A stretch of 5,349 nt of DNA from Pseudomonadota bacterium. Lineage in GTDB: Bacteria; Pseudomonadota; Gammaproteobacteria; Burkholderiales; Thiobacillaceae. This document shows positions 1,222-3,484 of this stretch, one piece after another. The translations under genes were made by a program, and so were the position numbers. The first letter of the stretch is position 1. The number at the start of each line of letters is the position of its first letter. The notes under the pieces were generated by a model, which saw only the letters and a list, made by a program, of their open reading frames with translations, did not search any database and had not been told where the DNA came from. Location: positions 1-5,349 of the forward strand of contig JAJYXA010000301.1 in the NCBI GenBank assembly GCA_021791235.1. The letters run 5' to 3'.

Positions 1222-1247
1222 TCTCTTAAAAAAGAAAGCCTCAGGCT
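1222..1247 (-). terminator. Possible short rho-independent terminator of the phospholipase gene
   Basis: Read on the minus strand, AGCC-TGA-GGCT is followed directly by TTTCTTTTTT. The 4-bp stem is very short, but the U-rich tract is good. The three-base loop is the TGA stop codon of the phospholipase gene. It lies in the 25-bp gap between the two convergent genes, where a terminator is expected. No matching signal is seen for the plus-strand phosphatase gene. Confidence 0.35.
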
Positions 1248-2434
1248 GCGTTGCGAAAACGCGGCTGCGTCTCGGCTTCGAACAGATCCCCCGGCAACGG
1301 CAGCCGGCACGCCACCAGCTCCGGCGCGTGCGCGGCGATGCGTTCGCGCGCGACTGCGACCGGCGGACAATCCGCCAGCCAGGCAGGCGCTTCGCCGGCC
1401 AGAACCCGGTTCATCTGCGGCAGCCGGGCCGTCACTTCCTGGATGTAGTAATCGAAGCGCGCGGCGAGTTTGCGATCCAGTACCCGCCCCATTCCGTGCA
1501 GCGCATGGGGAAGGCGGCTGTGCCGCAGCAGGCGCTCGGCACCCGCCAGCTGGCGGATCGCGCGGCGGCTGGCGGCGGGCGGGCAATCGAAGTTGCATGC
1601 CACATAGTCCACCAGCCAATCGTCGGCCTGCAGCAGAGGCGCGGGCGGGCGGAGCGGGGTGGTTGCTGCTTCAGCAGATTTACAATCACGGCCTGCCCCT
1701 TGCGAGCGGAACCGGTGCCGCACGATGTGATGGTCCATCGCCCATTCCGCCACGGCATGTGTGAGCATCGGCACGTTGCACCACAAGTGCTCGTGCGCGG
1801 GGACGAAATGATTGTGCGCGATGATGTCGACCCACAGATGGCTCATCGCGCCGACCGCGCAGGCCCGCGACTCGTCGTCGTGCGCCGCATCCAGCAGGGC
1901 ATGGGCCGTCTCCCAGCGGTGGCTGGCGTCGAAGGCCCGGGTGCCCGCCGTGGTTCCCACCAGGGCCAGATCGGGCAGGCAGGCGCCAGCCATCAGGCGC
2001 TGCGGGAAGCGCCGCACTGCGCGGCGCAGCGCGGGGTCGGCCAGCGGCACTGCCCAGACGAGCAGTTGCGCGAAATACACGTGGGTGGTCAGACCCCATG
2101 CCAATGCATCCGCGGCAAACAGGCTTGCCGGAATCGACCACCAGAGCGCGAGACGCCCGGCGAGCCTGTTAACGCTAATTTCGCGCTTGCGTTGCCGCGA
2201 GAAAGCGATGGATGCAAGGCGTGTCGCGCAGGCAAGGGCCATCCCTTGCCAAGTGACACAACGCCGCAGACGCGCTTTCTCGCGGCAACCCGGAGGGACG
2301 GGCCAATTCGGGCGCATTTCTTTGTCGCGACCCGCTTTCAGTGAATGACACTGCGGCGCGTCTCGCTTCGCGGACTGCATCCCGAATTGATCCCGTCGCA
2401 GGCGTGAAATTGGCGTTAGCAGGCTCGCTTTCAT
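1241..2434 (-). CDS. Zinc-dependent phospholipase C-like secreted protein, N-terminus lengthened by a palindromic insertion
   Basis: The body of this protein matches the zinc-dependent phospholipase C family (Bacillus PC-PLC / Clostridium alpha-toxin fold). Numbering from an upstream ATG at 2458 (405 aa), plausible zinc ligands are Trp121 (first residue after a predicted signal-peptide cut, DALA|WGLTTH), His126, Asp163 (LPD), His180, His207 and Asp211 (SHLWVD), His215, and His234 and Glu238 (HAVAE). In PC-PLC the N-terminal Trp itself binds zinc, so correct processing should matter. Family members hydrolyse phospholipid head groups outside the cytoplasm; the substrate here is unknown. The start is uncertain: no ribosome site is clear before 2458 or 2434, and other in-frame ATGs lie inside the insertion. 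I chose 2434 because the ATG AAA GC there joins cleanly to the signal-peptide codons once the 267-bp insertion is removed, giving a 308-residue protein starting MKAGRLALWW. In the present sequence residues 11-99 (numbering from 2458) are encoded by the element. A low-complexity linker lies near 250-275. Confidence 0.78.
   Translation of the reverse strand: MKASLLTPISRLRRDQFGMQSAKRDAPQCHSLKAGRDKEMRPNWPVPPGCREKARLRRCVTWQGMALACATRLASIAFSRQRKREISVNRLAGRLALWWSIPASLFAADALAWGLTTHVYFAQLLVWAVPLADPALRRAVRRFPQRLMAGACLPDLALVGTTAGTRAFDASHRWETAHALLDAAHDDESRACAVGAMSHLWVDIIAHNHFVPAHEHLWCNVPMLTHAVAEWAMDHHIVRHRFRSQGAGRDCKSAEAATTPLRPPAPLLQADDWLVDYVACNFDCPPAASRRAIRQLAGAERLLRHSRLPHALHGMGRVLDRKLAARFDYYIQEVTARLPQMNRVLAGEAPAWLADCPPVAVARERIAAHAPELVACRLPLPGDLFEAETQPRFRNAA
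2160..2191 (+). repeat. Left terminal inverted repeat of the element
   Basis: This arm begins GCGAGCCTGTTAACGC and pairs base by base with 2397-2428. Of the 32 positions 28 are Watson-Crick. The other four (2169, 2176, 2183, 2187) are transitions that give G-T pairs if the + strand folds. The similarity stops sharply outside 2160: the next two bases both mismatch. Confidence 0.85.
2191..2289. repeat. Hairpin domain A of the element
   Basis: The outer stem is a perfect 17-bp inverted repeat, 2191-2207 with 2273-2289 (GTTGCCGCGAGAAAGCG and its complement). Inside it GTGTC at 2221-2225 pairs with GACAC at 2255-2259. The core is a perfect 8-bp stem, 2231-2238 with 2243-2250 (GGCAAGGG / CCCTTGCC), with the 4-base loop CCAT at 2239-2242. 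On the minus strand the loop carries an ATG that is in frame with the phospholipase. Confidence 0.85.
2297..2397. repeat. Hairpin domain B of the element
   Basis: GACGGG at 2297-2302 pairs with CCCGTC at 2392-2397, and CAATTCGGG at 2304-2312 pairs with CCCGAATTG at 2381-2389, giving 15 bp around a small 1x2 internal loop. Further in, CGCG at 2326-2329 can pair with 2357-2360, CCG at 2332-2334 with CGG at 2354-2356, and CAGTG at 2339-2343 with CACTG at 2349-2353 around a 5-base loop (AATGA). The inner pairs are weaker than those of domain A. GTCGCGAC at 2324-2331 is also a self-complementary 8-mer. Confidence 0.75.
2397..2428 (-). repeat. Right terminal inverted repeat of the element
   Basis: This is the partner of 2160-2191; read on the minus strand it begins GCGAGCCTGCTAACGC. 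It begins immediately after ATG AAA of the phospholipase frame (minus strand, ATG at 2434-2432), so that frame runs straight into the element. Confidence 0.85.
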
Positions 2435-2515
2435 GCGCGCAATATGGCCGCGCAGCATGACCGTGCGCTGTCAGTCGCATGAATCTTCCGTGAATCGCCA
2501 TCCTGGCGGCCTGCG

Positions 2516-2521
2516 TATAAT
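2516..2521 (+). promoter_or_regulatory. -10 box of the kinase gene promoter
   Basis: A perfect TATAAT lies 30 nt before the kinase ATG at 2552. No good -35 hexamer is visible 16-18 bp upstream; a small palindrome CGCCA-TCC-TGGCG at 2496-2508 fills that space and could be a regulator site. The expected transcript has a leader of about 24 nt with no purine-rich ribosome site. On the opposite strand the same AT-rich patch could also serve the divergent phospholipase gene, but its hexamers are weak. Confidence 0.5.
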
Positions 2522-2551
2522 CCGGGCTGTCGTTTTCAATCCAAATCCATC

Positions 2552-3484
2552 ATGCGCACCCTCATCTGCGGTTCCCTCGCCTTCGATTCCATCATGGTGT
2601 TCCAGGACCACTTCAAGCACCACATCCTGCCCGACAAGATCCACATGCTGAACGTGTCATTTCTGGTGCCGGAGATGCGCCGCGAGTACGGCGGCTGCGC
2701 CGGCAACATCGCCTACAACCTGAAACTGCTGGGCGGCGAGCCGCTGATCATGGCGACCGTGGGCGACGACTTCGGCAGCTACGCCGAGCGCCTCGACGCG
2801 CAGGCGATTTCGCGCGAACACATTCGTCATGTCGCCGGCACCTACACCGCGCAGGCCTTCATCACCACCGACCTCGACGACAACCAGATCACTGCGTTCC
2901 ACCCCGGCGCGATGAACTATTCGCACGAGAACGACGTGCGCCAGGTGCAGGACGTCAAGCTCGGCATCGTCGCCCCGGATGGCCGCGACGGCATGCTGCG
3001 CCACGTGCGCGGCTTTCACGAGGCCGGCGTACCGTGCGTCTTCGATCCGGGTCAGGGCATGCCGCTGTTTTCCGGCGAAGAATTGCTGGAGTGCGTCCAC
3101 AAGTCCCGCTACGTCATCCTCAACGACTACGAAGCCGAGCTGCTGCAGAGCCGCACCGGCGAGAACCTCGCCACGCTGGCGCGCCACGTCGAAGCGCTGA
3201 TCGTGACGCGCGGCGCGGAAGGTTCGGTGATCCACACGGCCGGCCGGCAGATCGACATCCCGGCGGTGCGCCCGGCGGCCATCCTCGACCCCACCGGCTG
3301 TGGCGACGCCTACCGCAGCGGCATCCTGTATGGCATCGTCAAAGGCCTCGACTGGGAAACCGCCGGCCAGCTGGCGAGCGTGATGGGCGCGATCAAGATC
3401 GAGCACCGCGGCGGACAAAACCACAAGCCAACGCGCGACGACATCGCTGCGCGGCTCAAGGCCGCATTCGGCAAGACGTTCTGA
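2552..3484 (+). CDS. PfkB/ribokinase-family carbohydrate or nucleoside kinase
   Basis: This 310-residue protein has the usual length of the PfkB family and is cytoplasmic, with no signal peptide. It starts with the first beta strand MRTLICGSLAFDSI. The first PfkB signature is around residues 46-58 (YGGCAGNIAYNL). NDYE at 191-194 matches the Mg/ATP-associated N-x-x-E motif, VTRGAEGS lies at 218-225, and the second signature is DPTGCGDAYRSG at 246-257, where Asp252 is the expected catalytic base and the glycines form the anion hole. The reaction is ATP-dependent phosphorylation of a sugar or nucleoside hydroxyl. Homologues of this subgroup are often labelled ribokinase or adenosine kinase, but the substrate cannot be fixed from motifs. 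The lid region (about 10-45) is distinctive, with many His residues (HFKHHILPDKIH). The start at 2552 is the only ATG ahead of the first beta strand and lies downstream of a TATAAT box. It is probably transcribed alone: the phospholipase is divergent and the lipoprotein downstream has its own ribosome site after a 65-bp gap. Confidence 0.9.
   Translation: MRTLICGSLAFDSIMVFQDHFKHHILPDKIHMLNVSFLVPEMRREYGGCAGNIAYNLKLLGGEPLIMATVGDDFGSYAERLDAQAISREHIRHVAGTYTAQAFITTDLDDNQITAFHPGAMNYSHENDVRQVQDVKLGIVAPDGRDGMLRHVRGFHEAGVPCVFDPGQGMPLFSGEELLECVHKSRYVILNDYEAELLQSRTGENLATLARHVEALIVTRGAEGSVIHTAGRQIDIPAVRPAAILDPTGCGDAYRSGILYGIVKGLDWETAGQLASVMGAIKIEHRGGQNHKPTRDDIAARLKAAFGKTF

Follow-up and report, generated by a model that had tools for sequence, protein, structure and literature searches.

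The described systems closest to the element analyzed here are MITEs, REPINs and the CIR repeats. MITEPsy1 of Pseudomonas syringae is a non-coding, IS5-related MITE with the target CTAG/YTAA, thought to derive from an IS5-type insertion sequence (IS) (PMC3189936). Its tip GGAAGGTCTG is common to one end type of our element (the G699-type end), tip and target being nearly matching, but it is described as 100 nt long with 18-nt repeats and a 4-nt duplication, the cited passages mentioning no paired arms, whereas copies of our element with ends of type F1 show TA only as flanking repeat (PMC3189936). REPINs are likewise inverted doublets with compensatory changes; in the passages cited, however, they consist of two REPs beside RAYT genes and form one hairpin, whereas our element is about 269 bp long and has terminal repeats, two arms and no link to a RAYT that we could see (PMC3116915). 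The CIR repeats of Caulobacter also have two long stem-loop arms with a linker between them, but contain a GANTC motif and are described, in the part of the account cited, without a stem from pairing of the 5' and 3' ends, in contrast to the 32-bp closing stem found here (PMC2229807). QMITE2 of Coxiella is, like our element, a MITE, of about 190 bp with repeats of 23–29 bp, and its truncated copies resemble REPs, but the cited passages of a review describe no two-arm dyad (PMC10969869). As far as these passages show, each of the systems matches the element in single traits and none in its whole layout.

The window, i.e. the whole stretch of DNA analyzed (5,349 nucleotides), was originally predicted to contain a Y-shaped, self-complementary element of no recognised family at positions 2160–2428. 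Folding bears out the self-complementarity: the minimum free energy is -172.9 against a mean of -107.2 in 200 dinucleotide shuffles (z = -11.8), none of which folds as well, and the minus strand reaches z = -10.1. Both the 32-nt arms (2160–2191 and 2397–2428, 88% complementary) and the 17-nt pair (2191–2207 and 2273–2289, 100% complementary) were recovered. The Y shape holds as regards the closing stem and the two hairpin arms, but the fold also contains a small CCC-GGG hairpin at 2289–2297 between the arms, unlisted in the original prediction, which brings the layout nearer to a cloverleaf. Eight further copies from seven genomes give z-values from -12.1 to -18.2 (60 shuffles each). The features are as follows.

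1241–2434, minus strand: zinc-dependent phospholipase C-like gene, assigned from Pfam on 1241–2158 and the uninterrupted start in contig L002
2160–2191, plus strand: left terminal inverted repeat, one side of the closing stem; 2164–2180 (GCCTGTTAACGCTAATT) is identical to the left end of an IS5-family element in L271
2190–2288, plus strand: hairpin arm A with conserved internal loops GATGGATGCAAGGCG and CAACGCCGCAGACG; match to profile R1 at 2190–2297, 123 bits
2191–2207, plus strand: 5' side of the basal stem of arm A, partner of 2273–2289
2231–2250, plus strand: apical hairpin of arm A, GGCAAGGGCCATCCCTTGCC, from sequence and fold
2289–2297, no strand: hinge mini-hairpin CCCGGAGGG, the dyad centre, from sequence, fold and alignment
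2298–2396, minus strand: hairpin arm B, inverted homologue of arm A; the arm A profile matches 2289–2398 on the minus strand, 33.7 bits, E = 2.2e-5
2397–2428, plus strand: right terminal inverted repeat, other side of the closing stem, from complementarity and alignment

Most other full copies are homologous to the window over 2164–2424, and the outer GCGA/TCGC of the window copy occupies the place of TAGG/CCTA in many of them. The window copy lies near the start of the phospholipase C-like gene, ahead of a signal-peptide-like region, and the frame of this gene stays open through the entire element, which makes it 89 residues longer than with the L002 start. A coding role for the element was considered and rejected, no frame being common to the copies: 62 of 127 elements have no open frame, and no single frame is open in more than 28 of the 127. 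According to a crude reading, the flanking genes run in the same direction in 37 cases, convergently in 7 and divergently in 9 (12 of 65 copies were uncalled), with no preference for convergent gene gaps among the 53 copies called on both sides. The contig most like the window (L009, 93% in PfkB) is filed as a Rhizobium sp. MAG, the other close relatives being Thiobacillus-like; this is probably a binning error.

Multiple copies with conserved ends, originally named as possible support for a mobile or RNA element, were recovered from other genomes. By blastn, 4 of 6 genomes had matches, as did 31 of 60 relatives; the matches include fragments and palindromic self-matches and are not copy numbers. 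We extracted 65 near-complete copies, the one in the window included, and aligned 53; the 12 left out (L082, L089, L113, L119, L126, L133, L136, L143, L144, L147, L149 and L180) were set aside mostly for insertions, deletions or near-identity. Seven copies (L089, L113, L136, L143, L144, L147 and L149) have an extra arm B segment with AGCCGGGC or GGCCGGGC, perhaps a second version of arm B or a nested insertion. The element measures 265–286 bp in 118 of 127 cases, within length limits set by us (240–310 or 255–305). Common to the copies is a layout of a closing stem formed by the terminal inverted repeats, two hairpin arms and a CCCnnnGGG hinge, CCCnnn(n)GGG standing near the middle of 122 of the 127 elements. 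The closing stems belong to sequence types unlike one another (F1, GGGCSTGTTAAC..; F2, GAGCCTGTTTCAG..; F3, GGGCTCGTTAATG..; and others), and yet the arms keep their loops and layout in common.

A covariance model of arm A plus the hinge (R1) matched, at E 1e-5, 131 of 399 genomes of the order to which G021 belongs and 99 of 369 of the class, which we take to be Gammaproteobacteria in the wide sense. Scoring was limited to 9 or 10 candidates per genome, so that copies per genome are "at least" values, and the E-values of the model are rough. In 767 kb (the window and 80 loci) R1 gave only two weak matches outside the window, with E over 0.4. The layout was checked in the best R1 loci rather than in weaker matches: 49 were fetched and 41 examined, among which 37 have a closing stem of 18 or more points (two of these are about 195 bp long), two gave no result and two had no proper stem. 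Such a stem is also present in 35 of 38 further copies. Named carriers are plasmids of Azotobacter chroococcum, Variovorax paradoxus and Pseudomonas aeruginosa, and Burkholderia stagnalis has a diverged copy. The window itself matched no phage and, at E 1e-5, no plasmid; the core searched against plasmids at E 1 gave six records, five of which were opened and one of which (L270, Achromobacter) is not a full copy, while the exact core pattern had 0 matches in viral contigs. Rfam yielded no family match for window positions 2000–2560, its only two hits lying far below their gathering scores, and a literature search at title and abstract level found no description of the layout. The statement that the element belongs to no recognised family thus stands, and it appears to be undescribed so far.

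Contig L002 is without the element at the orthologous place, both flanks matching with one base between them, and both edges of the window-type insertion are present in G006 (L092, L097). Predicted empty sites of other copies occur in many genomes among the matches listed; junctions were read for L081, L165, L169, L170, L181 and L126, the exact target bases being blurred by divergence. Copies in the same genome (G079, G457; L100/L126, L141/L142) are 96 to over 99% identical, whereas their flanks are only 53–65% alike in gapped alignment, an uncalibrated figure (the right flank of L357 is cut by the contig end); L108 and L109 are orthologous and do not represent a jump. Near-identical copies at unrelated sites and orthologous empty sites thus confirm mobility, which the original prediction had put forward as an inference, and show the element to be a dispersed, recently mobile multi-copy family. 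TA stands on both sides of 16 of 32 copies with GGG tips, 0 of 8 with GGGCTC tips and 2 of 19 others, after dropping 6 of the 65 copies whose tips could not be set; TA makes up 1.5% of the dinucleotides in element loci, and the window copy has no TA on both sides.

Arm loss leaves end-to-end palindromes of roughly 20–55 bp, and a Variovorax sister plasmid (L273) keeps little beyond the two ends at the site of L267. Armless remnants of this kind, which resemble REP hairpins, were seen at L384:1378, L386:3463, L387:3423, L388:276, L193:697 and L194:762, and are a possible origin of some REP-like repeats. In the Azotobacter plasmid L269 the string TAGTGTCTCAACACACTTCAATCTGCG is an end of an IS630-annotated gene region; in L266, also an Azotobacter plasmid, it borders the element on the right, at CTAG, as if this edge were a target for another IS. 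The IS630 gene beside an Azotobacter copy was rejected as the element's own transposase, being a neighbour with other ends.

In the 53-copy alignment, 72 of 90 consensus pairs show changes on both sides. Paired cells amount to 94.7% compared with 73.7% expected, and cells changed on both sides number 904 against a shuffled mean of 255.6; 0 of 500 shuffles reach either value, counts that, although the alignment is sequence-based, are not probabilities, the structure being derived from it and the sequences being related. Sliding the stem partners out of register destroys the covariation. Such a strong fold with covariation, together with conserved internal loops and many G-U pairs in the inner helix of arm A in the plus-strand fold, could denote a non-coding RNA of mobile or regulatory kind, with selection acting on its stems in the transcript; such a structured RNA was one of the two uses originally envisaged. 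The consensus fold energies of plus and minus strand are, however, equal (-141.5 and -141.3), and the 75 pairs shared by both strand folds contain 63 GU and 79 AC cells, whereas RNase P from relatives of G021, taken through the same steps, has 46 GU and 16 AC (29 of 30 loci, L248 left out) and its subset of the 17 highest locus numbers, mostly Thiobacillus-like, 18 GU and 7 AC. When 127 distinct elements were folded individually on both strands (mean -178.2 for plus and -177.5 for minus), the plus strand was better in 68 of 127 (p 0.29), as against 29 of 29 RNase P sequences folding better on their own strand. The G-U excess of the inner arm A helix is mirrored in another register of the minus-strand fold, and therefore does not decide between DNA and RNA. 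Stem pairing is kept on both strands alike, and this lack of strand preference argues for DNA, not RNA; with the absence of an Rfam match added, we regard the structured RNA as very unlikely.

The two arms are related to each other. R1, although built on arm A, matches arm B of a Variovorax copy with 58.3 bits. Run at E 0.01 on 38 copies from seven genomes, it recovers an opposite-strand arm B in 32, missing L337, L344, L362, L365, L366 and L367. Arms A and B are thus shown to be inverted homologues around the CCC..GGG centre. With at most one mismatch, the first half contains the motif CAAGGCGC in 125 of 127 elements and GCAACGCC in 115 (shuffles 16 and 13), in a set whose copies were selected by motif or profile. 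In the second half, their complements GGCGTTGC and GCGCCTTG are found with the same tolerance in 46 and 56 of 62 wider copies (shuffles 7 and 12), but in only 21 and 28 of 65 copies of the Thiobacillus-group set (shuffles 13 and 10).

Pairing alike on both strands would also follow if it were kept by templated correction of the palindrome, i.e. template switching at hairpins, rather than by selection, the arms being passive. This agrees with the hairpin deletions in the end-to-end remnants and with the behaviour of the tips: in G457 and G699 the outer tip bases vary among copies, mostly in step at both ends (e.g. TAGTGTCCCTTAACA and TAGTGTCCTGTCTCC on the same inner stem), and 19 of 22 end pairs of G699, from a pattern search allowing one mismatch, agree at tip bases 5–6. 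Such correction should, however, erase the unpaired internal loops, and these are the most conserved part of the element, with the reservation that copies were chosen with motifs or a profile favouring the arm A loop. Since the conserved loops speak for a function of the arms, we consider purely passive arms possible but rather doubtful.

Information on how the element moves comes from its ends. An IS5-family element on a P. aeruginosa plasmid (L271) has the ends TAGGGCCTGTTAACGCTAATTAGC and TAGGGCCTGTTAACACAACC, and its end TAGGGCCTGTTAACGCTAATT matches the element end at 21 of 21 positions; the left ends of its relatives in Variovorax SRS16 and Polaromonas JS666 (L274/L275), CTAGGGCGTGTTAACACTAATT, are those of the other F1 subtype, pieces of the Variovorax IS matching DUF4096 and DDE_Tnp_1. 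The G699-type end, TAGGGAAGGTCTGCACGAAT, which is very unlike these, recurs on an Acidovorax plasmid (L399) at the terminus of an IS5-family element with DUF772 and DDE_Tnp_1, with 20 of 20 matches at one end and 4 mismatches of 20 at the other. Two end types of the element thus match two different IS5-family ISs, found only in organisms other than the carriers. Both ends of F1 copies resemble the left rather than the right end of the IS, which suggests inverted duplication. In the same genomes no IS with the same ends was found by a transposase search covering the DUF4096 (PF13340) subgroup of IS5: PF13340 occurs in 1 of 12 element-rich genomes (G129), where GAACGTG, the tip of the copies, was not seen around the two IS5 loci. 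The 64 end matches in G699 (a single contig) include no IS-spaced pair, and four stretches have a convergent end pair 0.9–2.6 kb apart only if one end is allowed 4 mismatches of 17. For F2, F3 and two further end types, no IS was recognised among the plasmid matches listed, weak chance-level hits aside. Seven unpaired F1-type ends were examined as candidate autonomous ISs and rejected for want of a convincing IS-spaced partner, up to 3 mismatches of 14 occurring by chance; three of them (L186, L187 and L191) are decayed orthologous copies.

The folded single strand had also been compared with the substrates of REP-associated tyrosine transposases. A REP/REPIN-like element on which a RAYT (Y1) transposase acts through single-stranded hairpins would account for bulged hairpin arms in inverted pairs, and Y1 genes are present in 15 of 20 element-bearing genomes; yet they are absent from the other five (G792, G278, G382, G021 and G025, of which G792 and G025 are apparently single contigs), and among the 10 Y1 loci read, out of 35 matches listed, none has a copy of the element within about 1.5 kb. 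As terminal inverted repeats, IS5-like at that, and TA flanks fit DDE transposition instead, we hold a RAYT substrate to be extremely improbable.

Because it is short, lacks a conserved frame, has terminal inverted repeats, occurs as dispersed copies with empty sites and ends in sequences matching IS5-family ISs, the element fits best among the MITEs, its interior being organised in an unusual way. Probably, it constitutes a non-coding, non-autonomous MITE superfamily that is moved in trans by IS5-type transposases and in which a conserved DNA-hairpin core is joined to changing ends. Such transposases would act on the element ends, with YTAR as the site of insertion. An IS left end together with one arm may have given rise to the element through inverted duplication; its arms would act as DNA hairpins, in a cruciform or in single strands, to its own benefit, and the core would survive as the ends adapt to one IS5 transposase or another. 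The arms may aid transposition or serve as the binding site of a host protein, or their pairing may be maintained by template switching. Tentatively, one may go further and regard the core, not the ends, as the persisting unit: a selfish DNA hairpin that a conserved factor, from the host or associated with a transposase, might recognise in cruciform or single-stranded form through the internal loops, and which might repeatedly gain new IS5-type ends and so parasitise many transposases across Gammaproteobacteria.

The finding adds a gene-free element, the arm profile of which matches roughly a quarter to one third of the genomes sampled from its class and order. It offers a natural case of DNA, not RNA, secondary structure covarying over long evolution, in which the use of cruciform or single-stranded hairpins is directly testable, and the comparison of both strands for bias is a cheap filter by which RNA catalogues can be kept free of such elements. 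A possible source of REP-like palindromes is suggested by the short end-to-end remnants, and the combination of a conserved core with changing ends is relevant to how a non-autonomous transposon passes from one exploited transposase to another.
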